Shown here: positions 6,739 to 52,828 of the stretch, one piece after another | How the letters are laid out: the number at the start of each line of letters is the position of its first letter | How positions within the stretch are numbered: position 1 is the first letter of the stretch | DNA from: a virus | DNA: 55,020 bases | IMG/VR virus record: IMGVR_UViG_3300009156_000035 | Span: 1 to 55,020 of that record | Strand: one strand, 5' to 3' | Notes under the pieces: generated by a model | What the model was told of the DNA's origin: nothing | Databases searched by the model: none | The model's input: the letters and a program-made list of their open reading frames with translations, nothing else | Translations under genes and position numbers: made by a program

Positions 6739-6832
6739 GCCTGACCTTTCCTCTGAACGAGTGCGGTGCACTGCTACTCGCCCGAGGCGCTAAGGCCAGG
6801 GCTGACGACCAGCGGCTAGGCGGCTGCTCGTT

Positions 6833-22798: not shown

Positions 22799-23083
22799 TC
22801 ATTCGCAGCACCGGTCGCAGACAGAGACGGTTGTGAACTGGCCGCAGACCATGCAGGTGCCGCGCCTCGCGCCTTCCGGCCCCAGCGCCTTCTCGTACAG
22901 CTCGTACCGATCGCGGAAGTCGTAGCGCTGCTGGAGCTGTCGCACGAGGACGCGGTAGTCCGTCATCTCGACCGGGGGCTTGTCCAGCTCGCGCCGCACG
23001 CTGCCGACGACTACGTAGAGCACCAGGCCGATCAGGAACCAGAAGCCCAGGGCAGCGAGCAGGCCGAGGAGCGCGATCATCAT
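22799..23083 (-). CDS. Membrane protein with C-terminal zinc site
   Basis: 94 residues. N-terminal transmembrane helix (residues 2-26, LLGLLAALGFWFLIGLVLYV), a cytoplasmic charged part with ELYEKALGPEG, a variant of the LYxxALG motif, and a C-terminal four-Cys site (CMVC and CDRCC). Unknown function. Confidence 0.55.
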   Translation of the reverse strand: MMIALLGLLAALGFWFLIGLVLYVVVGSVRRELDKPPVEMTDYRVLVRQLQQRYDFRDRYELYEKALGPEGARRGTCMVCGQFTTVSVCDRCCE

Positions 23084-27259: not shown

Positions 27260-27441
27260 GGGCGGCGCATCCTCTCCTTGAGCTTCTTCGCGCCCGCCTC
27301 GGCGCGCTCCAGCTCCTCCGGCGTCATCTTCGAGAACGGCTTGCGGTCGCGCACGTCGATCTCGCCCCAGTCGGCCACGTCGCTGGGCTTGTCCGGCGCG
27401 TAGCCCGGCTCGCCCCAGGGCTTGTCCTGGTCCTCACTCAT
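27256..27441 (-). CDS. Small charged protein
   Basis: 61 residues from the ATG at 27441, overlapping the stop of the zeta gene. Acidic N-terminal part with DKPWGEPGYAPDKPSD, basic helix at the end (EAGAKKLKERMRRP). No family; possibly an antitoxin by position next to the zeta kinase, but it has no epsilon-like features. Confidence 0.5.
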   Translation of the reverse strand: MSEDQDKPWGEPGYAPDKPSDVADWGEIDVRDRKPFSKMTPEELERAEAGAKKLKERMRRP

Positions 27442-28822
27442 TCGCCTTCGCCTCCATCTGCGCGTACCGCTTCCGGTCAAGGATCTCAATCGGGCCACCC
27501 GCCACCCGGTGCGCGATCATCCGTCGACCACCCTGGGCGTCGTCGTCGTTGGCCCAGACCTCCCAGTCGCTGGCCATGTCGCGCCACTCCAGGTGCCGCT
27601 GAGTGACGTTCTTGTGCAGGCTGCGGATCGCCGACTCGGAGACCTTACGCCCAGCGCCGCCGTACTCCTTCGCCTCGTCCTCGGTGCGCTTCTTCGCCCG
27701 CTTGATCGCCTCGTCGGTGGGGATGTCCACCATCACGATCTTGGTGCGATAGCCAGCCGCCTCAGCGGCGCGTACCTTGTCCATGAACTTGCCCTCGGGG
27801 TAGCGCTCCGACGGTCCCTGCGCGTCACCCGTGCCGTCGACGACGATCGGGAAGCCCGCCTCTTCGGCGTCCTTCTTGATGCTGGCCGCGATGTAGCTCG
27901 ACTCCTCGTGCGAGAGCATCGCCCAGCGCCAGTCGTTGCTCTTGATCAGGTCCTGCGCCTCATCCGACAGCGGCTTGATCTCGTCCGGATTGACGAGCAC
28001 GTTCCCCTCGCCGACGTCGAGCAGCCCTTCCTTGAACTCGCCGCTGCCGTCCATCTTCGGCTTGCCGACGATCGAACTCTTGCCGGAGGCCGTGCCGCCA
28101 GCCATGAACAGCGCCATCGGCTTCTCCCCGGCGGGCGGCTGGTGGCCCTCTCCGATGAAGAAGGCGCGCGTGGCGGCGTGGAACTCCCGGCGCTCGGGCG
28201 TGTACTCGCCGTTGGGCGCGAAGTTGTGGTGGAACGCCTCCTTGTGGGCGTCCAGCTCAATGGCGAGGAAGGCTTCGTAGCCGTCGGGGAAGTGCTGGTT
28301 CATGGCCTCGACCACGCCGACGGCGTTCAAGTCTTCGAGCGGGATGCCGTGCATCTCCGTGACACCGTTCTCGGTGAGCCAGCCTCGCGCGTCTGAGATC
28401 GCCTCGCGCGGGCGCAGCGCCTTGTAGTAGCCCGCTGAGGCGTCGTCGTCGGCTGGCCCCTTCAGCCAGGCGGGGCGCTTGTGCCCGCGCTCCTCGTCCT
28501 CGCCGGAGGGTGCGCTCGTGTCGTCCTTGCGCCGGAACTCCCCGCCTGCCTCGCTGCCCTTCGGGTGGCGGGGGTGATCGGCCTCGACGAACGCGGCTGC
28601 GGTGATGGAGGCGACGATCCCGACCACCTCGTCCTCGTCACCCTTGAACGGCGTCCAGTAGCCGCGCGAGAGGATCGACTGCACGTAGGCAGGCTCTGAG
28701 ACGGTGCGGCGGCGGGTGTCGACGATGACACCGCGCGTCTGATCGAACGGCGTCTCACCGCTCGGGTCTGGGTCGATCTGCACCAGCACGATGCTGCTGT
28801 TGCGCTCAGCTACGGCCTTCAC
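27434..28822 (-). CDS. Zeta-toxin-like kinase with HPRHP tag
   Basis: 462 residues from the GTG at 28822 (AGGAGGTGG before it). Residues 1-75 are an unassigned N-terminal module; the tag DHPRHPKGSEAGGEF is at about 78-92. The zeta domain follows at about 235-430: Walker A GGTASGKSS near 245, then VNPDEIKPL, AMLSHEESSYIA and VVDGTGDA. Zeta kinases phosphorylate UDP-N-acetylglucosamine and so block cell-wall synthesis, normally held by an epsilon antitoxin; none is recognisable here. A phage could deliver it with the head. ParB-like and ART modules share its tag in the next genes. Confidence 0.8.
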   Translation of the reverse strand: MKAVAERNSSIVLVQIDPDPSGETPFDQTRGVIVDTRRRTVSEPAYVQSILSRGYWTPFKGDEDEVVGIVASITAAAFVEADHPRHPKGSEAGGEFRRKDDTSAPSGEDEERGHKRPAWLKGPADDDASAGYYKALRPREAISDARGWLTENGVTEMHGIPLEDLNAVGVVEAMNQHFPDGYEAFLAIELDAHKEAFHHNFAPNGEYTPERREFHAATRAFFIGEGHQPPAGEKPMALFMAGGTASGKSSIVGKPKMDGSGEFKEGLLDVGEGNVLVNPDEIKPLSDEAQDLIKSNDWRWAMLSHEESSYIAASIKKDAEEAGFPIVVDGTGDAQGPSERYPEGKFMDKVRAAEAAGYRTKIVMVDIPTDEAIKRAKKRTEDEAKEYGGAGRKVSESAIRSLHKNVTQRHLEWRDMASDWEVWANDDDAQGGRRMIAHRVAGGPIEILDRKRYAQMEAKANE

Positions 28823-28846
28823 CGCCACCTCCTCCTTCTATCGAGC

Positions 28847-31462
28847 TTAGCTGTCATCCATGTCCCCTGGCTCCTCGCCGTTCTCGTCGACGACCTCCAG
28901 CCTGATCCCGCGCGCCGCGAGCCGCTTGCGGTAGTCGCGAAGCTGCGCGAAGTCGGCGCTGTCCCACGCCCCGTAGCTCGCCGTCTCCACGCGGACGGCC
29001 TCGACGTCGTCGAGCGTGACGCCGCCGTGGTACTGCGTTTCGATCGCGTCGCCGTCGAAGAGGCCCGTCTCGTTGACGTGGTCGCTGACGTCCACTATGC
29101 CCAGCCCCGCGTCTCCGTAGCCGGGCGGCACGGTCGAGCGCCAGCCGGGGTTCCTGAGCGGCCCTGGGACAACCGGTCGCGAGAGGCTGTCCACGAACGT
29201 GACGGTCGTGCGCGACTTCAGCTCCGGCTTCAAGAACCACGTCACCTCGCCGTACTGGCTGAAGTCGTTGTCGTCTTCGGGGTGGTCGAGCCAGCCGTAG
29301 ATCGGCCTCTGCTCGGCAGGCAGGTCCTGCGGGTAGCCGAAGAACATCTCCTCCTGCGCCGCGCGGATCGGCGGGCTGAAGAAGCCCCCGGAGCTGGCCG
29401 TCTCGAACTGCGTCTTGAAGCGCGGCTCCTCGTCCATCATCGACTGCATCGCCTCGAAGGTGGTCGTGGTGCGTAGCTCGCCCTCCTCGCCGATCTCGCG
29501 CATCCTCTCCTCGACGTCGTCGCGGTAGGTCGCGAGCTGCTTGTCCCACTCGGGGCCACCGACCTCGACCGGCTCGTCGCGCGTCCAGTAGTCGCGGTCG
29601 ATCGTCTCGCGCATGTAGTCGAAGTCGACCGAGTACGGCATCGCCGGGTTCAGGTCGCCTCTCCAGGCCGTGTCGGAGTTGGCGACCATGTCGTAGGTCG
29701 CGCCCCGGTACTCGGCCTCGCGCGGCAAGACGGCCGGGCCTTTCCAGCTCGGGTCACGAGCTGAGCCGAGCGTCTCTGGTGCGACTGGTTCAGCTGGGCC
29801 AATCCTCAGCGGGACAGGCTCTCCTGGGAAGAAGCCTTCCGGAGGCACCGGCCGCTCGTAGATTCGGCCGGTAGGCAGCACCTTGAACCACACGCCGGAC
29901 TCCTGCTTCTCCCACACGCCGGGGTTCGGCCCCCCCGTCACTCGGATCCTTGTTCCCACCGGATAGCGGGTCAGCTCCTCCGAGTCGAGCGCGCCCACCT
30001 GCGGCGGCTGTTCAACCCCACCTCCATCCTTCGGCCTGAACTCACCACCGATGCCGCCGGGGGTGCCCGCTGGCCAGCGCGGGTGCTCGCTCTCGACGTA
30101 GCCAGCCGCGCCTAGCTGCCGCCGGAGCACCGGCAGGTACAGGTGCTGGTGCCCGGCGCGCATCGCTGCCGCCACGCGGTTGTGACCGTCGGCGATGTAG
30201 AGCCGCCCGTCGTCCCCCTCTGCGACGCGCACCGAGTCGAGCAGCTCCGGCAGGTTGCCCTCCTCGCGCAGCTCCTGCAGGTACTCCTCGACGCGCACGG
30301 CGGAGACGACGTCCTGTGTCGGCACCAGCTGGCTCACGTCAACGGTCTCCATGTCCGGCCGCTGCTCTCTGAGCTGCCCCCAGTCGCTCACAGCGGCCTC
30401 CAGGGACGTCGCGGGCGCTTGGGCGAAGATCTCACCGACCGGCGTGCGCGGGCGCTCTCCTTCGATCCTGACGCGTCCTGGGCCACGTTCGAAGCCCTGC
30501 AGCCCGACGAAGGTGTCCTGGACGCCCTTCGGGGCGAACTCGCCACCCTCCGGCGTGCCCGGCGCGTGGCGCGGGTGCTTCGCCGGATCCCAGCCTGCGG
30601 CGGTCACTCCGGCCAATCCCTCGACGAACCGACGCATGTGGCCAGCCCACTCCGGCCAATCCTCCTCCCGGAACTTCGGGTCGGTCACCACCGCGAACGC
30701 CTCCGGAAACTCCTCGTCCCCAGTGATGTCCGAGTAGGTGGACAGCTGCTCGCGGATGTCCGGAGAGCGCGGCATGAACGAGCGGAACTCCTCGCGCTGC
30801 TCAGGCGTAAGCTCTGCCTCCACCTGGTGGCCGTATTCGTGCCTGAGCGTGGCTGGAGCGCCGCCTGTGTCGTTCACATACGACTGCCCCGGCTTGATCG
30901 GACCCGAGACCGCCTGGTCGAGGCCAAGCTCGCGCACCACCGACATCCGGTTGCCGGTCAGCCGCTTGGCCGTGCCCGGCGGCGTCAGCAGGTTGGTCGC
31001 CTCGTCACTCGCCTCGCTGACGATCGGCAGCACCTCGTCCGGCCCGAAGATCTTCTCCACCTGGACGAACAGATCCGAGCGGCGGTTGTACTCAAGCGCC
31101 TTCGCGATCTGCGCGTGGATCCGGGGGTCCTGGGAGATCGCGGTCTCCGCGAACCGCGCCCAGTTCTCCTCCGCCTTCAGCACATCAGCCGGGTCCGTGG
31201 TCTTCCCCCTGCGCCGGGCCGTCTCCTCAATCCCCTTGGCCAACCGCTTGCCCACGTTCTTCGGCGCGAACTGCCCGCCTTCCGCCACGCCCTCGGGATG
31301 GCGAGGGTGCTTCGACTCGTCCCACCCGGCAGCCTGCAGCCGGTCTCCGGTGACGTCCTCCAGCGGCTCCGCCTTGAGCAGCTCGTACGCCTCACCGAAG
31401 GCGACGCCCAGCCAGTCCGCGTAGGCGGCGACGAAGTCGTCTGTGAGCTGGTCGACTGCCAT
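28847..31462 (-). CDS. Multidomain effector: zincin, ParB-like, DUF3626-like, three HPRHP tags
   Basis: 871 residues; ATG overlaps the previous TGA. Tags at about residues 50-64, 291-305 and 458-473. Module 1 has a metallopeptidase signature, RHEYGHQVEAEL, near 207. Module 2 has ADGHNRVAAAMRAGH near 424, the ParB/Srx-like nucleotide-binding loop. Module 3 (about 520-865) resembles DUF3626: RPIYGWL, then SQYGEVTWFLKPEL, RTTVTFVDS, ETQYHGGVTLDDVEAVRV. DUF3626 occurs in toxin-like proteins. The protein is probably carried in the head and injected, judging by its tags and its position in the portal/MuF operon; this is inference. Confidence 0.7.
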   Translation of the reverse strand: MAVDQLTDDFVAAYADWLGVAFGEAYELLKAEPLEDVTGDRLQAAGWDESKHPRHPEGVAEGGQFAPKNVGKRLAKGIEETARRRGKTTDPADVLKAEENWARFAETAISQDPRIHAQIAKALEYNRRSDLFVQVEKIFGPDEVLPIVSEASDEATNLLTPPGTAKRLTGNRMSVVRELGLDQAVSGPIKPGQSYVNDTGGAPATLRHEYGHQVEAELTPEQREEFRSFMPRSPDIREQLSTYSDITGDEEFPEAFAVVTDPKFREEDWPEWAGHMRRFVEGLAGVTAAGWDPAKHPRHAPGTPEGGEFAPKGVQDTFVGLQGFERGPGRVRIEGERPRTPVGEIFAQAPATSLEAAVSDWGQLREQRPDMETVDVSQLVPTQDVVSAVRVEEYLQELREEGNLPELLDSVRVAEGDDGRLYIADGHNRVAAAMRAGHQHLYLPVLRRQLGAAGYVESEHPRWPAGTPGGIGGEFRPKDGGGVEQPPQVGALDSEELTRYPVGTRIRVTGGPNPGVWEKQESGVWFKVLPTGRIYERPVPPEGFFPGEPVPLRIGPAEPVAPETLGSARDPSWKGPAVLPREAEYRGATYDMVANSDTAWRGDLNPAMPYSVDFDYMRETIDRDYWTRDEPVEVGGPEWDKQLATYRDDVEERMREIGEEGELRTTTTFEAMQSMMDEEPRFKTQFETASSGGFFSPPIRAAQEEMFFGYPQDLPAEQRPIYGWLDHPEDDNDFSQYGEVTWFLKPELKSRTTVTFVDSLSRPVVPGPLRNPGWRSTVPPGYGDAGLGIVDVSDHVNETGLFDGDAIETQYHGGVTLDDVEAVRVETASYGAWDSADFAQLRDYRKRLAARGIRLEVVDENGEEPGDMDDS

Positions 31463-34400
31463 CAGCTGGTCTGCATCTGCTTGAGCTTGCGTTCGCGCTC
31501 AGCGTAGACCTCGGCTGCTGCGTCGCTGACCTTGGGCTTCGCGACACCGGCTGGCACCTTGAGCAGGCCGCGCTCTTCGAGCACGCGATCCCAGGCGGCG
31601 TTGACGTTCTCCAGGTCCTTGCCCTTGAGGTAGCCGGGGTACTCCGGCGGGAAGAGGTTCGTCTCCTGGCTGAACGCGTGGCGGGTGGTGCGGGCGATCT
31701 TGCTGCCAGGATTCTTCGCGGCGATGTACTGCTCGAACGAGCGTGCCACCATCTCCTCCGGATTCATCAGGTACTGCACGTGCCTCGGCCCCGGCCGGAA
31801 GTAGCGACCGCCGTACTGGAACTCCGCGCCCTGCATGCCGCCCGCCAGCCCTCGGTACATGTCCGTTTCCTTGATCGCGGTGACGACCGGAGCGAGGGTG
31901 CCGTAAGGATCGGAGGACGAGTAGTTGAACCAGTTCTCTCGGCCCTTCTCGCTACCGACGTACTTCGGGTCGGCCCAGGCGTCCTGGCCGAGCAGCGAGT
32001 CGAGGTAGTGGCCCAGCTCGTGCGTAGCCGAGCTGATGGGGTTCACGCCGTCGGGCGCGAGCGTGATCCGGTCGGGCTTCATCGTGCCCTCGTAGCGCCA
32101 GAAGACGCCCTGGTTCGCCTTCCCTTTCTGCCCCGGCCCCACCTTCAGGCCCGGCTCGCCGGGCACCGCTGGCCAGTGCATCGTCTGGTCGATCGTCTTC
32201 GCGGCCTCTAGCACCGGCTCGACGATGTCGGGGCCGCTGATGACCAGCTTGTCGAGCACCGAGCGGACCTCGCCGCGCTGCATCGGCCCAGTCGAGCGCT
32301 CGCCGGGGTCCGGGAGCCGGAGCAGCTCGCGCAGGTTGAACGGATCCTCGGAGACCTCACTGCCGTTCTTGGCGCGGAACTCGCCGCCGCGCTCCGACCC
32401 CTTGGGGTGACGGGGGTGGTCTGCCTCGACGAAGGCGGCTGCCCGCACCGGCTGCTCCTTCAGGTCGCGGTCGCCGACGAGGATGACCTCCTCCGACTCC
32501 GGCTCACCGATCCCTGTCCAGGGCAGCGACCAGACGTTGCTGGCCGGGGTCACCATCTTGCGGACGACGCCGTCGGCGGGCTTGCCGTACCAGTTCGACA
32601 TCCCCTTTGCGTAGTCGTCCGCCGTCTCGCGGCGGAGCGCCGTCGCGGACGCGGGCCACAGCCCTTCCGGCTGGCGCGTCGTGTCGCCCCGGTAGAGCGT
32701 CAGCTGGTCGATCCCGAGCCTGTCCAGCTCCGCCTGTGTCTCGCCGTACACGGCGCGCACGAACTTCCGCAGGCCGGGGTGCCCGTAGGCTGGCCCCATC
32801 TGGCTGTAGTACGAGTTGTTGCGCCAGCGATCCTTGGCCAGCATCGCGGCGGGCTTGTCCAGCCCGAACTCGTCAGCGACCGCGTCCTTGATCGCCATCG
32901 CCGTGAAGGTGTCCTGTCCGTTGGCCCAGCCCTGGTGGAGCGCCTGCACCTTCTCCAGCGTCGTGCCGAACGGCATGTAGCGGTCACTCTCGTCCCCGAC
33001 CTCCAGCGCGAAGATCTCTGGCAGCTCAGCGAAGTCAGGGTCACCCTCCAGCCGATCGGCGAGGCGCTGGGTGACCTTCGTGTAGTACGCCTTGCGGTGC
33101 TTCAGCTGCTCGGCGCGCGCTTCCCGGTTCTCGGGCTTCCAGTAGTCCCCGGTGGGGATCTTGACGCCCCCGCTGGCCTCCTCGACGTTCTGCTCCATGA
33201 CCGCCAGCAGCCTGTCCTCATCGAACTTCTCGCCCTCCGGCCGCGTGTGCGGCTCCTCCTCCTTCCGCTTGACCGCCTCCGCCGACTGCTGCTCGCGGAC
33301 GGCCACCCAGTCGACCCACTGACCGCCGTGCTCACCACCGGGGTCGCGCGGCTGCGCCGGGTTGTAGCCTGCGGCGCTCAGCGCCTCGACGAGCGCCAGC
33401 GCGGCGTCGCGGATCTCTGTCCCTGCAGAGGCGCGGACGGTGTCGGCCGGTTCGATCGCGCCGTTGCGCAGCCGCGCCTTCTTCTTCAGCTGGAACTCGT
33501 GCTCGCCGGTCTGCATCAGCATGTGCCGGGGGATGCGGAACGAGCGGAGCGTCGGCGGCTCGCGGTTGATGTCCTGCGCGAACTGCGCCGTCGGGATCCC
33601 AGCGAACCACTTGCCGGTCGGGATCTCGTCGCCTTCGAGCCAGGCGTCGTACTCGGTGTCGGACATCCCCCGGTAGATCGTCACGAACCCAGGTTCGTCC
33701 GGCAGCCCACGGGCGGCATCGACGGCACGCGCGTAGTCACCGGCCAGGTCTGAGTCCGGCCCGTCCGGGAAGAAGTCCGTGTCGGTGATGTCGAGGACCT
33801 CTTCGACCTGGACGCCCTCCGGTTGCTCGAACCAGTCCTCGTCGGTCTCGTGCCGCTTGTTCGCTCCCTCCGGGTACGTCCAGACGGTGAAGCTCGGCTC
33901 CATCCCTCCCTCGGCGGCGGGCAGCGTCACCTCGAAGTCAGGCCCGCTGTCGGCGGCGCGCTCCGGGTCGAGCGCCACGTCCATGTCGCCGTCCGTCTGC
34001 GGGTTGAGCTGCGGCGTGATCTTCAGGCCAGCCACCTGCGCGCCGTTCAGGCGTGCCTGCAGCTTGGGCAGCTCACGGTTGACCCAGTCCTGGTACGTGC
34101 CCCAGGCCTCTTCCTGCAGGCCCTCGAAGTAGCCCACCGGGTAACCCTCCGCCTCGGTGTAGTAGGGGCGCATCCCCTCCGACCAGTCTCTGAACTCCTT
34201 CTCGGCCGTCGACCAGTCGACCTGCGCGCCAGCGGCGTTCTCGGCTCCGGACTCTGCGTCCTGCGCCTGCCGCGCGTCCTCGGCGGCTTCCTGGTACGTC
34301 TCGCGCACCGGCCCGGCCAGGGTGCGGCCTTCGTGCTTGCCAGGCACGTCGCGGTCCATCCGAAACGCCTGGTAGCCGATCGGCTTGTCGTTCTCGTCGC

Positions 34401-37400
34401 GGGCGATCATCGCGCCGTGGTAGAAGCCCTTCGGGGCGAACTCGCCGCCCTCGGGTGAGCCAGCCGGGTGGCGCGGGTGCTTGGCCGGGTCCCACCCTGC
34501 TGCCGTCAGGACTCCGACGATGTCCTCCTCGCGCAGCTCGACCTCCACCCAGACCGCTGCCGCGAGTCCTCCCTCGACGATCTCCTGCGCGTCTCGGATG
34601 TCCTTGCGGTGGCGGGCGGCGACCTGCTTTGCGATCTCCTCGTCGTCGTAGTCGTTGGGTGTCATGCCGTGCCCGGCCATGATCTTGTTCCCGAAGTTGA
34701 CGTCCCCGACCGGTAGTCCGAGCGCCGCCGTCATGTGCGAGTGATGCGGCTTCCCGTACTTGTCGACGAACCAGAACGCCAGCTCGTTGCCAGCGTGGTC
34801 GGTGATCGCCTTCCAGACAGGCTCCCCGTGCAGGGTGCCCATCCTGTTGGGCCAGAACTTGACGCTGTCCTTCGGCTCGAAGATCCCCATCGGGAAGTGG
34901 TCTGGCATCCGGCCCTGGCCGTACGTCTTCGCCCGCTCTGCCCGCTGGCGCTGGATCTCCTTCTCCAGCTGCGCTCCGAGTGGGCGGGATTGGCCGATGA
35001 ACTTGGGCGCGAACTCGCCGCCCTTGTCGGTTCCGGCGGGGTGACGGGGGTGCTGGCCCTCGACGAACGCGGATGCGTCCAGACCGCTGGGGCCGGTCTT
35101 GTGCGTGGCGCGCTGCTCGCGAGGCTTCTCGGTGATCGTCGTCTTCGTCTTCGGCATCGGCCCACCGGCCTTGCGCGGCAGCGGAGCCTTGTATTCGATC
35201 GTCACGAAGAAGTCGCCGCCGAAGTCGGCTGGCTCGTCCTGGCCGGTGAACGGGTTGGCGACGGTGCCGGGGTGGCGCACGGTCGCGTCGGCCTTGAACG
35301 AGGTGACGTGGCCGTACTTGACGTTCGTCCGCAGCGGGTGGATCTCGGTGATGAAGAACGGCTTCCCGAGGGGCATGATCCGATCAGCCGTCCCCCACGG
35401 GTCGTAGACGCCCTTCGTCTTCAGGTACTCGCCCAGCCCGGAACGGATGTCGCCGCTGATCGTGCCCTTGCGGAACTCCCCGCCCTCGTCGCTGCCCTTC
35501 GGGTGCCTGGGGTGCTTCGTCTCGTCCCAGGCCGCAGCAGCGAGAGCACGATCCTGCTGATTCTCCGGCAGCATCGCGTTGGCATCACGGATGTCGCGTC
35601 GGTGACGCTCGACGATCGCGTAGGGGTCTTGCTTCACGTAGTTGATGCTTGAGACGACCTCCCCGTAGCCAGAGGGCAGGAAGTAGAAGGCCCGGTCCTT
35701 TGGCAGCCCGAGGGCGTCGATCATGTGAAAGTGGTGCGGGCTGCCGTTGACGTTGACGAACCAGAACGCCTTCTCCTCTCCGGTATCAGCGTCGATCAGC
35801 GCCTTCCAGAACGGCCCGTACGGGGCGTCCTGCTGGAAGCCGGAGTAGGCCCCCATCTTCTCCGGCCAGAACTTCACGCTGTCCTCCGGCGTGAACTCGC
35901 CGGGCGGGAACCCCCGTGGCGCGTCGGTGCCCGCGCCGGTCTTGACCCACTGGCCCCCGCCTTCTCCGCCGGGATCTCGGGGCTGCGTCGGGTCGTAGCC
36001 AGCGGCGCTCACCGCCAGGTCGCCCTTCATCACGATCTGCTTGATCCCCGGAGGCCCGAACGCGTCCTTGCCGTAGATCAGCGTGCAGCGGCAGTTGATC
36101 ACGTTGCCGTCCGAGGCCGAGGGGTCGCCGGGGTAGAGCAGCTGCTCGCCGCCGACTGTGAACGGCTGTGAGATCGGCACCGTCTGTCCGTGCGCGTGGC
36201 GGTGGTCCATGCGGGTGCGCTCGTCCGGGGTCGCCAGCCAGGTCTTGAACTGCAGCTCCGGGCTGTTGACGACCACGGCTCGCTGCTGGCTTGCGCCGTT
36301 GGCGAGCGCGATCAGGTCGGTGCGCGCCAGCATCGTCGCCTGCCAGGGGGCGATCCCGTCGATCTTCTCCGTCAGTGCCTTCGCCGTCTGCGGGATCGAC
36401 CAGCCCTCGTGGAGGGAGTCGAGCATCACGTTGGCGGCGGCGTCCTGCACCCCGGCCACGAGGCGCTCTGCCTGCACGCCGACCTGCTGCTCCAGCAGCT
36501 TCGAGTACTCGGCGATTGCCTTCAGCTCGGCTGCGCGCTCCTCCGCGTTGAGGCCGTAGATGATGAGCAGCGCGTTGAGGATCTCGCGCAGCAGCTCGCG
36601 GCGGGCGACTCCGGTCAGACGGAGGAAGCTCTCGACGAGCGCAGCGGCCTTGACGACCTCCTCCGGCAGCGGCCCTCCGGCAGCCTGCACCACCACGCTC
36701 GCGGCCTTGTAGTCGACGGCGGCGCGACGGGCGGCGCGGCGGTAGACCTTCTCGTACTGGCGCTGCAGGCGCTCGACCGCCTTGAGCAGCCTCTCGTCGT
36801 CGAGGAGCGCTGAGGCAGCCATCGCCGGGGCGACGGAGATGATGTTCGCGTCCTTGATGTCCTTCTTGTGCCGCTTCGGGACCTCCTCGACGGCGTCCAT
36901 GATCAGCGAGTGCAGCTTGTTGCCGGTGCCCTCCAGCCGCATCATCTCGTCCTTCTTCACGCCCAGGTCGTTCGCGAAGTAGGAGGCCATCCAGCCCATG
37001 TCGGTGCTCGGGCCGAAGCCGCTGACCCGCAGCGGCCCCACGAGCACCTCGTCCATGCTTGGCGGCGTGATCCCGAGCGCGTGCGCCATGTCGAGGTGGT
37101 GCGGAGCGCCCATGTCGGTGACGAACCAGAACGCCAGCTCCTTGCCGCTCTTCGGATCGACCCATGCCTTCCAGGCAGCGCCGCCGGAGCCTTTGCCGAT
37201 CGGCAGCCCCCGGCCGATCTTCTCCGGCCAGAACTTGACCGGCCCGTCCGGGTCGAACTCGCCGGGCGGCAAGCGCCGGATCGGCTGTACGTTCCCCTCG
37301 CGGTCGACGAACCCAGGTGCGCCCTTGGGCGCGAACTCGCCGCCGGTCGAGCCGGGTGCGCCAGCGGGATGCCGGGGGTGCTTCGCCGGGTCGAAGGCGA

Positions 37401-37410
37401 CGACGGTCAC
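31462..37410 (-). CDS. Giant MuF-type head protein with toxin-like modules
   Basis: 1,982 residues from the GTG at 37410 (GTGA overlap). Seven HPRHP-type tags, two of the QPRDPGGExGGQW form. Order: tag; unknown domain copy 1 (about 50-185); MuF domain (about 205-450, with WLATPDERTRMDHRHAHG and VINCRC near 440); tag; copy 2 (515-620); tag; an unassigned domain; tag; copy 3 (840-945); tag; ADP-ribosyltransferase-like domain with IYRGM (about 1241) and GEHEFQL (about 1300); tag; second such domain with LTLYRGD (about 1567) and ESEEVILVGD (about 1640); tag; zincin with ATHELGHYLD (about 1800). MuF proteins sit at the portal inside the head. Confidence 0.75.
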   Translation of the reverse strand: MTVVAFDPAKHPRHPAGAPGSTGGEFAPKGAPGFVDREGNVQPIRRLPPGEFDPDGPVKFWPEKIGRGLPIGKGSGGAAWKAWVDPKSGKELAFWFVTDMGAPHHLDMAHALGITPPSMDEVLVGPLRVSGFGPSTDMGWMASYFANDLGVKKDEMMRLEGTGNKLHSLIMDAVEEVPKRHKKDIKDANIISVAPAMAASALLDDERLLKAVERLQRQYEKVYRRAARRAAVDYKAASVVVQAAGGPLPEEVVKAAALVESFLRLTGVARRELLREILNALLIIYGLNAEERAAELKAIAEYSKLLEQQVGVQAERLVAGVQDAAANVMLDSLHEGWSIPQTAKALTEKIDGIAPWQATMLARTDLIALANGASQQRAVVVNSPELQFKTWLATPDERTRMDHRHAHGQTVPISQPFTVGGEQLLYPGDPSASDGNVINCRCTLIYGKDAFGPPGIKQIVMKGDLAVSAAGYDPTQPRDPGGEGGGQWVKTGAGTDAPRGFPPGEFTPEDSVKFWPEKMGAYSGFQQDAPYGPFWKALIDADTGEEKAFWFVNVNGSPHHFHMIDALGLPKDRAFYFLPSGYGEVVSSINYVKQDPYAIVERHRRDIRDANAMLPENQQDRALAAAAWDETKHPRHPKGSDEGGEFRKGTISGDIRSGLGEYLKTKGVYDPWGTADRIMPLGKPFFITEIHPLRTNVKYGHVTSFKADATVRHPGTVANPFTGQDEPADFGGDFFVTIEYKAPLPRKAGGPMPKTKTTITEKPREQRATHKTGPSGLDASAFVEGQHPRHPAGTDKGGEFAPKFIGQSRPLGAQLEKEIQRQRAERAKTYGQGRMPDHFPMGIFEPKDSVKFWPNRMGTLHGEPVWKAITDHAGNELAFWFVDKYGKPHHSHMTAALGLPVGDVNFGNKIMAGHGMTPNDYDDEEIAKQVAARHRKDIRDAQEIVEGGLAAAVWVEVELREEDIVGVLTAAGWDPAKHPRHPAGSPEGGEFAPKGFYHGAMIARDENDKPIGYQAFRMDRDVPGKHEGRTLAGPVRETYQEAAEDARQAQDAESGAENAAGAQVDWSTAEKEFRDWSEGMRPYYTEAEGYPVGYFEGLQEEAWGTYQDWVNRELPKLQARLNGAQVAGLKITPQLNPQTDGDMDVALDPERAADSGPDFEVTLPAAEGGMEPSFTVWTYPEGANKRHETDEDWFEQPEGVQVEEVLDITDTDFFPDGPDSDLAGDYARAVDAARGLPDEPGFVTIYRGMSDTEYDAWLEGDEIPTGKWFAGIPTAQFAQDINREPPTLRSFRIPRHMLMQTGEHEFQLKKKARLRNGAIEPADTVRASAGTEIRDAALALVEALSAAGYNPAQPRDPGGEHGGQWVDWVAVREQQSAEAVKRKEEEPHTRPEGEKFDEDRLLAVMEQNVEEASGGVKIPTGDYWKPENREARAEQLKHRKAYYTKVTQRLADRLEGDPDFAELPEIFALEVGDESDRYMPFGTTLEKVQALHQGWANGQDTFTAMAIKDAVADEFGLDKPAAMLAKDRWRNNSYYSQMGPAYGHPGLRKFVRAVYGETQAELDRLGIDQLTLYRGDTTRQPEGLWPASATALRRETADDYAKGMSNWYGKPADGVVRKMVTPASNVWSLPWTGIGEPESEEVILVGDRDLKEQPVRAAAFVEADHPRHPKGSERGGEFRAKNGSEVSEDPFNLRELLRLPDPGERSTGPMQRGEVRSVLDKLVISGPDIVEPVLEAAKTIDQTMHWPAVPGEPGLKVGPGQKGKANQGVFWRYEGTMKPDRITLAPDGVNPISSATHELGHYLDSLLGQDAWADPKYVGSEKGRENWFNYSSSDPYGTLAPVVTAIKETDMYRGLAGGMQGAEFQYGGRYFRPGPRHVQYLMNPEEMVARSFEQYIAAKNPGSKIARTTRHAFSQETNLFPPEYPGYLKGKDLENVNAAWDRVLEERGLLKVPAGVAKPKVSDAAAEVYAERERKLKQMQTS

Positions 37411-37631
37411 TCTTCCTCCACGGGCGTCTCGGTCGTCACGATGCTCCAGCAGAGCAGCAGCAGCGTCAACGCCTGGAGCACGCGCAGGGCGACCGTCTTC
37501 TCGACGGACGTCCAGGTGAGGATCGTCGCGAGCACGAACACGACGCCCAGCCAGAAGCCCCACGCGCGTCGCTCGCGGGCGCTCGTCCGGGAGGCCAGCC
37601 AGTCGCTGGGTCCGAAGAAGATCCGCTTCAC
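37407..37631 (-). CDS. Small membrane protein, two helices
   Basis: 74 residues from the GTG at 37631, which overlaps the portal stop. Two transmembrane helices (WGFWLGVVFVLATILTW and VLQALTLLLLCWSIV), acidic tail. Sits between portal and MuF genes. Function unknown; could help DNA or protein passage through the host membrane. Confidence 0.55.
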   Translation of the reverse strand: MKRIFFGPSDWLASRTSARERRAWGFWLGVVFVLATILTWTSVEKTVALRVLQALTLLLLCWSIVTTETPVEEE

Positions 37632-39601
37632 AAGACCCTGTCGAGGTAGGCCCGGAGACGCGGCGGGAGCGGCGGCGGGTTCTCCTCGAACAGCGTCTTG
37701 GCGGCGTGCTCCTCCAGCATCAGCGCGATGCGGCGACCGATCGCCGGATCGACACCGAACTCGGCGGCTACGTCGGCGAAGCCGTCCCCGGCCCCCTTGA
37801 CCAGCTCTTGCGGCGTACCCAGGCTCGCGCCGGAGCACTTCTCCATCCCGAGCAGCGCCGCTACGCCGGTCGTCCCCGACGGGGGCACGCTGGCGACGAG
37901 CGCGTGCAGCCCCTCGTCCTTGCGCACGCGGGTGCGCAGACGTGACCCGGCCAGCTCGCGTGCTCGGCGGGTAGTTGCCCTAGCAACACCGGCCAGCTCT
38001 GCGGCGTAACCGGAGGCAGCGACGGAGCTGTTCCCGTTCTTCTTCACCGTCTTGTCGTCGACCTGATCGACCTGCGACTCCTCCTCGACCTCGGCGCTGT
38101 CGTCCTTCTCCGGAGGCGGCTCCCCCTCGGCGGTGTCGTCCTGCAGCAGATCGTCGACCGACGGCTGCGGCATGACCGGCTCCGGCTTCTCCGGCCGGTA
38201 CTTCTCGGGCAGCATCTGCGGATCGTTGAACTGCTTCGCGAGGGCGATCCGGAACTCCTCGTCGTCGGGTTCGTCGTCGTCGTTGAAGCCGCCCGCGTCG
38301 CGCCAGGTCGCCCCGCTCAGCTCTCCCTGCGCATACAGGGCGGCGGCGTCCTTGTTGCGGTCGGGGTTGTTGATGACCTCGGCCGGGTCGTACCAGATCG
38401 TGTAGTCGGCCCAGTTCTCGACGCCCTGCTTCTTCAGGTACGGGCGCAGGTAGACGCCGGTCAGATCCTCGACGAAGAGGTTGGCCATCGGCTGCAGGTG
38501 GGCGCTCCAGGTCTGGTCATCGACCAGCCAGGCGCTCCAGTGGTTGGCGTCGCCCACGCCGAGCAGCTGCTCCTTGGGGAAGTCGAGACCGATCGCGATC
38601 CGGCTGATCAGCTCCGTCCGCAGCCCCTGCTCCTCGTACTTCTCGTTGGGACTGCCGATCGGGATCCAGCGCAGCTCCTTGAGGTGCTCGGCAGGACCCT
38701 GGATCACGATCGGCACCACTGCGGCGGCTGAGCCAGGGTCGCGGATCGCGGTGGTCGCCGCCCTGTGCAGCAGCTGCATGACCGGCGACTTCGTCTGGTC
38801 CTGCTCTGCGCCGGTCGGCATGTTCGCGAAGATGATCTCGGTCGGCACGGCGAGGATCCCGGCCCCGTTGAGGCGGGAGCGCGCGCGGGCACGGACGGCC
38901 AGCTGGAGCAGCTGTAGCTCCTCGAACAGCGTCAGGCAGGCCCGCATCGGCGCGTCGGCGAGCATGGAGTAGCTCGGGTGCCTGCGCCAGAGGCGGTAGA
39001 CGACCGCCGTCTTCTGGTTCCCCTTGTCGACCGGCTCGAAGTCGTCGTCGGGTGCAGTCAGCAACTCCTCCGGCGAGACGGACGGCGCGGCGTAGCGGAC
39101 GTAGCCCCGGCCGGGCGCGAGCCGCAGCTCGTTCGAGGACAAGCACTCCCAGACCTCCTCCTCGGTGTCCGGGTTCTCGGTCACGGTCAGGTAGGTCTCT
39201 CCGGTGAGGAACATCAGCCGTGCCCACGCGGCCTGGAACTGGGAGCGGCCCCCGCTCGGGTCCTTGATCCGCTCCAGCGCCTGGACGCCGGGGTCGTCCG
39301 GCTCGTCCTTCAGCTCCGTGACCTCGCCCTGCTCGTCCTTCTTGGCGATGTAGAGCCTCAGCTTGCCGATCGCGCGCGCGTAGAACTGGGCCGCGTACCA
39401 GGCCTCACCGCAGCTGTCGTACATGGTGAGCGCCTCGTTCTGCCACAGCTGGCTGAGGCGGCGGTACTGCTCGGCGCGCGAAGGGTTGACGCGTTGCCCA
39501 CCCGCAGTGAGGGCCTTGCGGTCTGCGCCAGGAACGAGCGGGATGTCCTCCTCGGGGAAGAAGACGCCGCCGTTCGTAGGCAGCTTGCGTGGGCGTGCCA
39601 C
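37628..39601 (-). CDS. Portal protein
   Basis: 657 residues from the GTG at 39601. Follows the usual actinophage portal pattern: AEQYRRLSQLWQNEALTMYD near the start, then FLTGETYLTVTE, LRLAPGRGY, ARSRLNGAGILAVP, and QLLGVGDANHWSAWLVDDQT near residue 390. The C-terminal 150 residues are acidic then helical. Forms the dodecameric ring through which DNA is packed by TerL. Its neighbours downstream are the membrane protein and the MuF protein. Confidence 0.85.
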   Translation of the reverse strand: MARPRKLPTNGGVFFPEEDIPLVPGADRKALTAGGQRVNPSRAEQYRRLSQLWQNEALTMYDSCGEAWYAAQFYARAIGKLRLYIAKKDEQGEVTELKDEPDDPGVQALERIKDPSGGRSQFQAAWARLMFLTGETYLTVTENPDTEEEVWECLSSNELRLAPGRGYVRYAAPSVSPEELLTAPDDDFEPVDKGNQKTAVVYRLWRRHPSYSMLADAPMRACLTLFEELQLLQLAVRARARSRLNGAGILAVPTEIIFANMPTGAEQDQTKSPVMQLLHRAATTAIRDPGSAAAVVPIVIQGPAEHLKELRWIPIGSPNEKYEEQGLRTELISRIAIGLDFPKEQLLGVGDANHWSAWLVDDQTWSAHLQPMANLFVEDLTGVYLRPYLKKQGVENWADYTIWYDPAEVINNPDRNKDAAALYAQGELSGATWRDAGGFNDDDEPDDEEFRIALAKQFNDPQMLPEKYRPEKPEPVMPQPSVDDLLQDDTAEGEPPPEKDDSAEVEEESQVDQVDDKTVKKNGNSSVAASGYAAELAGVARATTRRARELAGSRLRTRVRKDEGLHALVASVPPSGTTGVAALLGMEKCSGASLGTPQELVKGAGDGFADVAAEFGVDPAIGRRIALMLEEHAAKTLFEENPPPLPPRLRAYLDRVL

Positions 39602-39603
39602 GG

Positions 39604-39741
39604 TTACTTCTTGGCCTGCGTCTTGTTGACGCGAGCGGCGACTTCCTGCCTGCGGGCCTCGCGCTGAGCAGCTCTGCGCTCCATGCGAGCCTGCATCTCC
39701 GCCTGCTTCTCCTCCCTCGTCTTGCCACAACCACAACCCAT
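39604..39741 (-). CDS. Small charged protein with CGCG start
   Basis: 45 residues, MGCGCGKTREEKQAEMQARM; GAAGGAG before the ATG. A short Cys pair at the N-terminus, then a Lys/Arg/Glu helix. Two bases separate its TAA from the portal start. Unknown role. Confidence 0.55.
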   Translation of the reverse strand: MGCGCGKTREEKQAEMQARMERRAAQREARRQEVAARVNKTQAKK

Positions 39742-39770
39742 GTGTGCTCCTTCACGTTGGACTAAGCCAG

Positions 39771-46212: not shown

Positions 46213-46552
46213 TGGTCATCCTCCTGCTCGGGGACGGGATAGGCACGCTTCGGCGTGCTGCGCCGGGGTGGACCATCGACGCGATCTCAATCACCTCGTG
46301 GCGAGAGAGACCGGAGTCGTGGAGCCACCAGTCGGCGTACTCCTCCGTCTGGTCCGGCGTGCAGGGTTGGGCCGTCTCGACCCGGCGACAGGTCTCACAG
46401 AGCCGTCGCGTTTCGCCCTTCTGGATACGCCGTGCCTGGCGGACACTTGTCTCGTAGTACTCCTTGCATTCGCCGCAGCGGATCAGCGCCACCCGCGCGT
46501 CGCGGGGGCGCTGGTAGTCCCTGCGCTTGACCTCCCACGTTTCCGCTTCCAT
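46121..46552 (-). CDS. Zinc-finger protein next to TerL
   Basis: 143 residues from the ATG at 46552 (overlaps the TerL stop by one base). N-terminal half with CGECKEYYETSVRQAR and LCETCRR, a four-Cys zinc site between basic helices. The last 30 residues overlap the lysin-like gene in another frame. Likely DNA-binding. Confidence 0.55.
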   Translation of the reverse strand: MEAETWEVKRRDYQRPRDARVALIRCGECKEYYETSVRQARRIQKGETRRLCETCRRVETAQPCTPDQTEEYADWWLHDSGLSRHEVIEIASMVHPGAARRSVPIPSPSRRMTSEEGHRTASTGVGAIRISGLGLTVNVSTAA

Positions 46553-48096
46553 CAGATCTCGCCCTCCGGGATGAAGATCCCCCCCAGGCCTACGTGAGGG
46601 TTGGCGTTGACCCAGTTGATCGCCTGGCTCCAGGCGTCGACCTGGTCGTCGTTCGCGCCCCGGTTGAACTGGGCGCACTCTTCGATGAAGTCCTGCACCC
46701 AGCCAGGGGTCTGGGCCGAGTCGCAGTCGGTCTGGTTGGCGTTCGCGACGCCCGGCAGGAAGCAGTTGTTCGACTCCAGGGTCGGCTGCGCCGTGCTCGC
46801 CCGCAGGTACTTGTCCGTGCTCACGGTGACGTCGACGACGCCAGTGATCTCGCGCTTCAGCTCGGCGATGATGTCCGCGCCGTTGCCCGACTTCTCAATC
46901 AGGTGGTTGAGCGGCAGGTAGGGCCAGATCCCTCGGATCCAGCCGTTGAACTCCTTCATCGCGCGCTTGGTCGCGCCGTAGAGCATCTGCTCGCGGTGGC
47001 TGCGGAGGAGGAAGAAGTCGGCCCCCTTGACGCCCCAGACCTGGCCGACCACGTAGTCGCTCGACGTCTTGTCCTTGAAGGCCGTGTCCCAGCTCGTCAC
47101 GATCCGGTCGAAGGCGAAGCTGCTCGGCTTCTCGTCGAAGCGCTTGCGGTCGAAGTAGCGCCAGTCCGCGCGCTTGAGCAGGTCGCCCTCACGGGCGGAC
47201 GGGCGCTGCTGCAGCTGCCCTGCCGCCTCGTGCGCGCCGAGCTTCTTGGCCCGGTTCTTGTTCTCGCGATCGCTGACGCGGGCAGGCCAAAGCAGCTCCC
47301 CCTCCTGCACGCGCTCGTCCTGCGGCCAGACGAACGGATGCGACGGCTCGTAGCGCTCCGGCAGGCAGACGATCTCCCAGTCGTCGTAGTACTGCAGCGC
47401 GTAGCCCGCCAGGTCGTTCGTGTGGAGGCGCTGCATGATGATCACCTCGGCCAGCTCGCCGGGGTCGGCTGCTCGGGTGGCCAGCGTGCCGGAGTACCAC
47501 TTGTTCGCCTTCTCCAGCTTCGAGCCGGAGGCGATCTCCATCGGCTTGAGCGGGTCGTCGATCACGATCCTGTGCGCGTGACGGCCGGTGACGCCGCCGT
47601 CGGGGGAGGTGACGTAGCGGCGACCGCCTGCGGTCGTGACGTAGTCGCCCTTCTGGTTGGCGTCCTCGCGCATGCTGACCTGCCAGCGGCGCTGGTACCA
47701 CTCGCTGAGCACGACGTCGCGCGTCTTGGCCGAGAAGTCGAGGCCGAGGCTCTCCTCGTAGGAGCCGGTGATGTAGCGCAGCCACGGTCTCCGCGTCCAC
47801 TCCCAGGCGGGCCACAGGATGCTGGCGAGGATGCTCTTCATGGAGCCGGGCGGCACCCAGATCTGCAGGTGCCTCACGTCACCGGTCGAGACCCAGGTGA
47901 GTGCCTCGCAGATCGCGGGGATGTGCCAGTTGTCCTTGAACGGCGTGTGTGGCTCTATCTCCCGCCACGCCGCCTTGACGAAGGCGTAGTAGCTGTGGCT
48001 GAGCAGCTCCGCCTCGGTGCGGAGCTGGTCCTCGGCCTCGAAGCGGAGGCGCATCTCCCCTGCGGTGAGGGGGCGCTCCTCCTCGGTGATCGTCAC
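46552..48096 (-). CDS. Terminase large subunit
   Basis: 514 residues from the GTG at 48096 (GTGA overlap). ATPase: Walker A-type PPGSMKS at 82-88, an altered form of the usual PPRHGKS, and Walker B IVIDDP at 177-182. Nuclease: TSWDTAFKDK near 335-342 with SSDYVVGQVW after it, and GANDDQVDAWS near 485. Powers DNA packaging through the portal and cuts the concatemer. TerS and the two small capsid-like genes lie directly upstream. Confidence 0.9.
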   Translation of the reverse strand: MTITEEERPLTAGEMRLRFEAEDQLRTEAELLSHSYYAFVKAAWREIEPHTPFKDNWHIPAICEALTWVSTGDVRHLQIWVPPGSMKSILASILWPAWEWTRRPWLRYITGSYEESLGLDFSAKTRDVVLSEWYQRRWQVSMREDANQKGDYVTTAGGRRYVTSPDGGVTGRHAHRIVIDDPLKPMEIASGSKLEKANKWYSGTLATRAADPGELAEVIIMQRLHTNDLAGYALQYYDDWEIVCLPERYEPSHPFVWPQDERVQEGELLWPARVSDRENKNRAKKLGAHEAAGQLQQRPSAREGDLLKRADWRYFDRKRFDEKPSSFAFDRIVTSWDTAFKDKTSSDYVVGQVWGVKGADFFLLRSHREQMLYGATKRAMKEFNGWIRGIWPYLPLNHLIEKSGNGADIIAELKREITGVVDVTVSTDKYLRASTAQPTLESNNCFLPGVANANQTDCDSAQTPGWVQDFIEECAQFNRGANDDQVDAWSQAINWVNANPHVGLGGIFIPEGEI

Positions 48097-48311
48097 GCGC
48101 CGTCGCCGCCGTTCACGAACGCGACCCCTTCGAACACCTCGCCGAAGATCTCGTAGTCGCTGACGCCCTGCAGCTGCGAGTCGCGGACGAGGCCCAGGTC
48201 GAGGGTGCCGCCGTCGAGGTGGATCCACGAGCCGCCGACGGGAACGTCGTCGACCATCGCGAGCGGCTCTGGTAGCCCGAGCGCGCGCCGGTAGAGCGCC
48301 TCACGGTTCAC
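48093..48311 (-). CDS. Mini-protein resembling the C-terminus of the capsid protein
   Basis: 72 residues from the GTG at 48311. Residues 1-15 carry the LYRRALGLPEP motif. Residues 28-68 (LDGGTLDLGLVRDS, then DYEIFGEVFEGVAFVN) closely match the end of the major capsid protein (LDGGTLELGIVRDS, DYRIFGESFEQVAFVG). The rest of the coat fold is absent. Overlaps its neighbours as GTGA on both sides, so it is kept as a real small gene and not a random remnant. Confidence 0.65.
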   Translation of the reverse strand: MNREALYRRALGLPEPLAMVDDVPVGGSWIHLDGGTLDLGLVRDSQLQGVSDYEIFGEVFEGVAFVNGGDGA

Positions 48312-48544
48312 TGGTCAAGCTCCTCGGGGATCGGCAGGAGCAGCTCCGGGGGGAGGTCGAAGCCGTGGGCGATCTTCTTGATCGCGTCCATGCGGATCGT
48401 GTGGAGCTGGTAGACGGGGCTGAGTGGAGCGCAGATTCCCCCGGTCGCGAACTCGAAGCGCAGGTCATGGATCCGGTCTCGCAACCCGAGCGCCTCCCGG
48501 TACTGCCGCTGGCGGTGGTACAGCGTCAGCGAGTCGAGGCTCAC
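48308..48544 (-). CDS. Mini-protein resembling an inner capsid segment
   Basis: 78 residues from the GTG at 48544. Contains RQRQYREALGLRDR, then FATGGICAPLSPVYQL, similar to VASGGLCAPVTPYYDL of the major capsid protein. The C-terminus (HGFDLPPELLLPIPEELDQ) is unrelated. Together with the next gene it looks like two ends of a capsid gene with the middle lost. Confidence 0.6.
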   Translation of the reverse strand: MSLDSLTLYHRQRQYREALGLRDRIHDLRFEFATGGICAPLSPVYQLHTIRMDAIKKIAHGFDLPPELLLPIPEELDQ

Positions 48545-49044
48545 TGCGTGATCTCCCTGACCACCTCGGCGTCGATCACCTTGTCGTCGGGCAAGGTGGC
48601 GAGGATGTCACGGATCGCGCGCAGCTGCTCGGTCGGCAGCGAGCGCGGGTCGAGCACCAGTCCGTGCTCGTGCCGGGTGCGCTGGTCGATCCGCCGGGTG
48701 CGTTTGTAGTCCATCTCCCCAAGCCGCGCCTCCGCCATCAGCACCAGCAGGCGGGGAGAGGCTTCGTCCCTGCGGTCGAAGGCGCGCTCCATCACCTCGT
48801 GCCGGATCCGCTCCTGCACCTGCTCCTCGAAGTCCGGCAGCAGCTGGTTGTAGAGCGCGCGGAACTCCTGATCGTGGCGCAGCAGGCTGACGAAGCGACG
48901 GCCGGTGGAGCCGACCGCGCGCGCTGCAGCGACGTGAGACATCCCCTCTTCGCGGCAGGCCAGGTAGCGAAGCTGCTGCTCCCGAGTCGGCTTACGAGAG
49001 GCTGGAACCAGTCGCGTGTACGTCTCTTGGAGAGTTTCGCCCAC
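48541..49044 (-). CDS. Terminase small subunit-like
   Basis: 167 residues. N-terminal helix-turn-helix (QQLRYLACREEGMSHVAAAR, then STGRRFVSLLRHD), central helices for oligomerisation (FEEQVQERIRHEVMERAFDR), and a C-terminal part with LPTEQLRAIRDILATLPD. Position before TerL and size fit TerS, which recognises the packaging site. No other family fits as well. Confidence 0.7.
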   Translation of the reverse strand: MGETLQETYTRLVPASRKPTREQQLRYLACREEGMSHVAAARAVGSTGRRFVSLLRHDQEFRALYNQLLPDFEEQVQERIRHEVMERAFDRRDEASPRLLVLMAEARLGEMDYKRTRRIDQRTRHEHGLVLDPRSLPTEQLRAIRDILATLPDDKVIDAEVVREITQ

Positions 49045-52023: not shown

Positions 52024-52199
52024 GGTTCGAGCGCCCTTCGGTAGAGGTCTCGTCTCGCACTGAGGATGTGGCGCTGGCGCTTCCACTCGCGCTGGCGCAC
52101 CTGGGTTCGCCGCTCCCAGTCGGCCTTGCGCTCCTCCCGCGTCTTCCTCGGCACGCGGCCAGCCAGCCAGTCGTCGAGGGTGGCCCGCTCGTCACCCAC
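52020..52199 (-). CDS. Small basic helical protein with LYRRAL end
   Basis: 59 residues from the GTG at 52199. Arg/Glu/Lys helix (TREERKADWERRTQVRQREW) ending DLYRRALEP, a variant of the LYxxALG motif. Stop overlaps the next ATG; the start overlaps the gene upstream by eight bases. Confidence 0.55.
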   Translation of the reverse strand: MGDERATLDDWLAGRVPRKTREERKADWERRTQVRQREWKRQRHILSARRDLYRRALEP

Positions 52200-52419
52200 C
52201 GAGCGCCGCCTCGTACAGTCGCATCCGATCGTTCGCCTGCGTCCAGAGCGTGAAGCCGTTGACGACGCTGTCGCGATGAATCAGGAACCAGTGGTCGCCG
52301 ACCTTGGAGATGCGCGGCTTGCGCTCGCGGACGACCGGCGTCGGTGGATCCTCGCGCAGCTGGTGCGCGCGCATCTGCTGCAGCCGGTGCTCAGCGGCCT
52401 TCCGCTCCCAGTTCCTCAC
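52192..52419 (-). CDS. Small protein with LYEAALGG end
   Basis: 75 residues from the GTG at 52419. Basic N-terminal half, then WFLIHRDSVVNGFTLW and a C-terminal LYEAALGG. GTGA overlap. Function unknown. Confidence 0.55.
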   Translation of the reverse strand: MRNWERKAAEHRLQQMRAHQLREDPPTPVVRERKPRISKVGDHWFLIHRDSVVNGFTLWTQANDRMRLYEAALGG

Positions 52420-52625: not shown

Positions 52626-52828
52626 GCGCCCAGCGCCTCTCGGTAGAGGACCTGCCTTCGATACTCGTCGGTCGCGATCCCCATCAGCTTCCGGGCGTGC
52701 GCGTTGGAGATAGCGCCTTGCTTCAGCAGGGCCTGCAGGTGGTCGAATGCCTGCTGTGCTTGCACCGCGTCGGCGGCGACGTGCACAACGACCGAGCCGT
52801 CCGGCTGGAAGTCGATCCCGACGCTCAC
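52622..52828 (-). CDS. Small protein with LYREALGA end
   Basis: 68 residues from the GTG at 52828 (GTGA overlap). Strand GSVVVHVAADAV, then helices with LLKQGAISNAHARKLMG, ending VLYREALGA. Carries the recurring LYxxALG motif at its C-terminus. Function unknown. Confidence 0.55.
   Translation of the reverse strand: MSVGIDFQPDGSVVVHVAADAVQAQQAFDHLQALLKQGAISNAHARKLMGIATDEYRRQVLYREALGA

Follow-up and report, generated by a model that had tools for sequence, protein, structure and literature searches.

What are the two very small genes that lie between the terminase genes of this phage, and what could copies of its own head proteins do there? The window, i.e. the whole 55,020-base stretch of DNA analysed here, encodes a head module of the HK97 type (capsid, portal, TerL and TerS), all of it in minus orientation, and its open reading frame list shows that the gap between TerS and TerL is filled by two genes, A and B. 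The earlier note had described two intact, coupled frames in front of TerL, 41 kb from the real capsid gene, and the layout of the locus bears out both statements:

46552..48096, minus strand, TerL, the downstream coupled gene (phrog_38 terminase large subunit, E 3e-86)
48093..48311, minus strand, gene B, 72 amino acids, a start helix and a capsid C-terminal hairpin (ORF, tblastn, HMM, shuffles)
48308..48544, minus strand, gene A, 78 amino acids, a start helix, a capsid N-arm-like piece and a portal-like piece (ORF, base composition, HMM, shuffles)
48541..49044, minus strand, TerS, the upstream coupled gene (phrog_4044 terminase small subunit, E 0.005)
4978..6771, minus strand, major capsid gene, its protein placed at 4978..6735, with an N-terminal scaffold-like part and an HK97 fold (phrog_777, E 4e-82)
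37628..39751, minus strand, portal gene, its protein placed at 37628..39736 (phrog_776, E 9e-108)

Both A and B start with GTG, and the same four-base overlap, GTGA, is found at each of the TerS/A, A/B and B/TerL junctions. The G+C content at the successive codon positions is 0.70/0.38/0.91 in A and 0.78/0.41/0.92 in B, the G+C of the window being 0.68. These profiles resemble those of TerS, TerL and the capsid gene, thus indicating that both genes are coding. The two proteins give no matches in a Pfam scan, an Rfam scan gives no match at the A/B locus and no tRNA is found within the window. The gene after that of the capsid (4082..4948, minus strand) encodes a second conserved protein, phrog_779, of unknown function, which may be a vertex or minor capsid protein.

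The same pair is kept in one relative, which was reached through a TerL search. Its contig, IMGVR_UViG_3300035168_000023 (L013, L145 and L163), encodes a TerS 75% and a TerL 68% identical to those of the window. Relatives with frames broken by mutation or replaced by a whole capsid gene would have counted against the earlier note; in this relative (L013/L163) both small genes are intact, at the same TerS-TerL site and coupled by overlaps, which argues that A and B are real, working genes:

L013:4556-4783, A ortholog
L013:4780-4998, B ortholog

The orthologs are 39% (A) and 45% (B) identical. At the four-fold codons of kept residues the third base agrees at 5/15 and 5/17 positions in the small genes and at 26/77 in TerS. 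Synonymous change is thus saturated, as in TerS, and yet the proteins are kept. The overlaps and a short start helix are also retained in both lineages, and the conservation evidence comprises these two. The sequences L163 and L172, which come from different metagenome samples, show no difference over 5,051 bases (100% identity) and represent the same phage seen twice. The relative additionally encodes a 26-residue hydrophobic peptide (SIPDGLMLVIVLLMILVVIHLLVAH) between TerS and A, overlapping TerS (L013:4476-4556).

The segments of A and B that resemble head proteins, and their counterparts in the capsid and portal genes, are located as follows:

48114..48233, minus strand, capsid P-domain hairpin-like piece of B, residues 27-66 (capsid HMM positions 526-565)
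5059..5178, minus strand, capsid residues 520-559, the hairpin copied in B
48395..48448, minus strand, capsid N-arm-like piece of A, residues 33-50 (ATGGICAPLSPVYQLHTI; HMM, shuffles, invariant residues)
5908..5946, minus strand, capsid residues 264-276, the N-arm signature copied in A
48335..48394, minus strand, portal-like piece of A, residues 51-70 (RMDAIKKIAHGFDLPPELLL; portal HMM positions 311-336, phrog_776)
38558..38623, minus strand, portal residues 372-393, the signature copied in A (alignment of 13 portals)

Residues 27-66 of B display 67.5% identity over 40 amino acids with the C-terminal beta hairpin of the phage's own HK97-fold capsid protein, in agreement with the earlier assignment of the 72-residue product to the capsid end. 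The own capsid gene aligns with B at E 2.8e-14 (63% identity over residues 25-67), and tblastn retrieves capsids of Arthrobacter, Gordonia and Microbacterium phages at 60-70% identity (best E 5e-10, 70% over 40 amino acids). Scored with a capsid HMM built from 59 full-length capsid proteins, with the small genes left out, B reaches 63.7 bits and its ortholog 44.7 bits, while the 5,000 shuffles of each stay at or below 7.5 bits; an earlier capsid HMM may include the L013 ortholog of B, and the model of the shuffle test is free of it. The residues retained in the hairpin were compared by aligning it with 37 capsid segments, columns below 90% being taken as variable. B keeps 14/17 of the capsid-invariant columns, its ortholog 13/17 and both jointly 12/17, and none of the 26 variable capsid columns is kept by both orthologs. 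Thus retention in the B orthologs tracks the residues that are immutable in the capsid, as would be expected if B must still occupy a capsid-like contact. The predicted structure of B consists of a helix (residues 3-11) and a hairpin (37-43 and 53-59), at moderate confidence (mean pLDDT 64).

The match between A and the capsid is short and, for A alone, weak (blastp E 0.003-0.02, HMM E 0.14); with the ortholog the capsid HMM value is E 0.001. The matched region spans HMM positions 275-292 in A and 268-292 in the ortholog, and for either protein 0/5,000 shuffles equal the real capsid score. Both orthologs display the N-arm signature A.GG..AP....Y and retain A264, G266, P271 and Y276, residues that are invariant in the 59 family capsids. 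The ortholog HMM, the shuffle tests and the retention of invariant residues make the A-capsid match firm, and the earlier placement of the 78-residue product in a more upstream capsid segment therefore stands. In six-frame searches the best match of the A profile is the capsid gene in 3 actinobacterial genomes with such a capsid, at weak scores (E 0.015-0.25).

The earlier note rightly recognised separate capsid pieces and overlooked the portal piece. Residues 45-70 of A match the signature helix of the portal protein, at the same 25 portal positions in both A orthologs. In PHROGs both proteins match phrog_776, the family of the phage's own portal: A at positions 312-335 with E 0.1, the ortholog at 316-336 with E 0.15. 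Similarly, a portal HMM built from 13 portals scores A at 13.0 bits (positions 311-336) and the ortholog at 14.5 bits (316-337), with 0/5,000 shuffles as high. The portal consensus at the copied site approximates R.EA..R.A.G.D.P.E.LLG, and the corresponding A sequence is RMDAIKKIAHGFDLPPELLLP. Of 1,225 open frames in the window plus two relative contigs, the portal model matches only the portal itself, A and the A ortholog. In the phage collection the sole tblastn match of the A ortholog falls at the same place in the BruhMoment portal (E 6), which the window's portal also matches. A search of solved portal structures found no relative. With capsid and portal matches in one short frame, A is, as read from its sequence, a chimera that joins a capsid N-arm piece to a portal piece. 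The saturation of synonymous sites, the 39-45% of residues kept and the retained capsid invariants indicate that A and B are proteins under selection and not debris.

The predicted model of the capsid protein adopts an HK97 fold (mean pLDDT 77, Z 14.5 to 1ohg), with residues 268-570 aligning to HK97 gp5 116-383. The segment copied in A belongs to a poorly ordered, flexible N-arm, and the segment copied in B forms the long C-terminal strands 522-536 and 546-558. In the model, capsid residues 1-179 form a long N-terminal coiled-coil and an acidic linker, resembling a built-in scaffold domain. Residues 27-66 of B and 33-50 of A are thus homologous to the hairpin and the N-arm of the phrog_777 capsid and contain the invariant residues of the copied segments. 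In contrast to that capsid, of approximately 585 amino acids, the 78- and 72-residue proteins belong to the terminase operon and contain approximately 18 (A) and 40 (B) capsid-like residues; the spine helix, A-domain and E-loop that complete an HK97 fold with the N-arm and P-domain are missing, consistent with the earlier remark that the middle of the coat is absent. Likewise, A shares with the phrog_776 portal only the one segment, positions 311-336 of 612, and the next portal signature, nHW.A, is missing.

A and B begin with the same short helix (LYxxALG), and similar motifs sit at, or close to, the termini of several unrelated small proteins, in a single reading frame, and in the relative (L163:3861-4475). 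The copies in the window are:

48482..48502, minus strand, YREALGL helix motif, A residues 15-21, common to B and other small proteins
48273..48296, minus strand, LYRRALGL helix motif, B residues 6-13 (predicted helix 3-11)
9106..9125, 22881..22900, 52027..52046, 52199..52218 and 52629..52648, minus strand, LYxxALG-type copies

The corresponding DNA pattern occurs 10 times with up to 2 mismatches, against 1.4 expected (0/100 shuffles). The genic copies share one frame, and a protein motif, possibly a docking tag, therefore seems more likely than a DNA-level Shine-Dalgarno or binding site. Another peptide, similar to HPRHPKGSEAGGEFRPK, recurs across at least five large head-region proteins, with several copies in the largest (9799..13183 and 27434..37563, minus strand; L003:5255-7435), and is perhaps a cleavage or capsid-targeting signal.

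The distribution of the pair is narrow in the collections covered. In L147, whose TerL is 47% identical, TerS abuts TerL and A and B are absent, and the A/B motif is not seen upstream of TerL in the inspected non-syntenic relatives L015-L025 without L016 (29-39%). Scanning IMG/VR with single-protein patterns for A, B and the capsid revealed no A or B relative. In a wide capsid-motif scan the open-frame matches listed are either capsid proteins or fragments at contig ends, and among the matches listed the only tiny complete genes of the pooled set are the window's B and its L013 ortholog. In the phage collection (50,697 records) whole capsid genes match B and no further mini-gene B is found; neither A nor B is seen in the other phages there with this capsid family. 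Similarly, a scan of 396 actinobacterial genomes detects whole capsid genes and no third A/B pair, and scanned plasmids give no A/B match. A 527-residue match of the A profile (L188) was rejected as chance, being glycosyltransferase-like and without a portal-model match. The absence of the pair from the TerL-47% relative and from the other capsid-family phages seen indicates that head assembly does not generally need A and B.

Known structures relate the copied pieces to one another. In phage D3 the end strand of the scaffold extends the P-domain sheet and the N-arm takes its place after cleavage; SaPI1 CpmB competes with the 80-alpha scaffold for the N-arm of the capsid (PMC12749128). The wing loops of the 80-alpha portal contact the P-domains of the capsid (PMC10541612). 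The pieces of A and B thus appear to belong to one contact region. In an HK97-type prohead the P-domain is contacted by the scaffold, by the N-arm following scaffold removal and, at the portal vertex, by the portal. A, as a copy of the N-arm and a portal segment, would represent the partner side, and B, as a copy of the C-terminal hairpin of the P-domain, the receptor side. We therefore tentatively favour a role in head assembly, in which both sides of the P-domain contact are copied. A and B would be small soluble modulators co-produced with the terminase; in both lineages their translational coupling with TerS and TerL suggests that they are expressed along with the packaging genes. We infer that they could associate with subunits of the capsid, scaffold or portal, and perhaps with one another, and could thereby determine when heads assemble, how large they become or how the portal is used, ahead of packaging. 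Counting against such a role are the mean pLDDT of 64 for the B hairpin predicted alone and the phages, noted above, that lack the pair. Binding to the P-domain or N-arm during assembly would make A and B similar to the P-domain-associated region of the HK97/D3 scaffold, SaPI1 CpmB and P4 Sid; those are scaffolds or satellite proteins, whereas A and B copy the phage's capsid and portal. The lambda Nu3 scaffold, an in-frame part of protease gene C, is likewise a fragment of another head protein that acts in head assembly, but it is nested inside its parent gene, while A and B are a distant, separate pair.

The location of the pair also bears on other explanations. Two lineages place A and B between TerS and TerL with coupling on either side, and A carries a portal signature, as might be expected of packaging regulators that bind TerL, TerS or the portal vertex through their portal-like and capsid-like pieces and tune motor docking; the relative with a 47% identical TerL packages without them and a capsid hairpin such as that of B has no known terminase role, and we consider such regulators improbable. 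Placement with the terminase genes would in turn be late for immune decoys, an equally doubtful alternative in which A and B would show capsid and portal signatures to host sensors, bind them without triggering and delay abortive infection. Bacterial sensors of this kind exist, CapRel being activated by the capsid protein (PMC9712102) and Thoeris sensing the major head protein (PMC11312562), so that hosts can sense capsid surfaces as a decoy would require. The copying of signatures from two proteins and the faster evolution of A and B than of their neighbours (39-45% against 68-75% identity) would suit a decoy; the kept residues are the structural invariants of the capsid hairpin and not new ones, CapRel and Thoeris are host proteins to which nothing in the window links A or B, and no such decoy was found in the literature searched.

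The same sequence evidence would accommodate a structural rather than a regulatory role, with A and B as minor virion components built into the shell or at the portal vertex, since a hairpin that keeps its invariants could occupy a lattice or edge position. With so few capsid-like residues in B, and fewer still in A, we regard this as rather unlikely. Least probable, and disfavoured by the sequence comparison, is a neutral remnant of duplicated head genes that stays open by chance. Partial duplications occur in phages and G+C-rich DNA, such as that of the window, has few stops, but the frames are intact in two lineages rather than decaying, a substantial part of the residues is kept despite saturated synonymous sites, these residues follow the capsid invariants, and the overlaps and start helix persist in both lineages. 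The proposal in the earlier note of a kept remnant of duplication does not fit either, because A combines segments from two separate genes within a single short frame and shares its start helix with B.

Head assembly remains the tentatively preferred setting for A and B. Phages make scaffolds and are parasitised by proteins that redirect capsid assembly; we know of no tiny independent genes built from a phage's own capsid and portal signatures and kept by selection, and no description of such mini-genes was found in the literature searched. The pair might, still more tentatively than the assembly role itself, represent a class of self-mimics, namely a coupled pair that copies the P-domain hairpin and its partners, has a common start helix and either tunes assembly or shields the phage from sensors. 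Should A and B act in assembly, they would reveal the short segments of an HK97-type head that suffice for binding and for steering assembly; should they be decoys, phages would be seen to shield the most recognisable parts of their virions.
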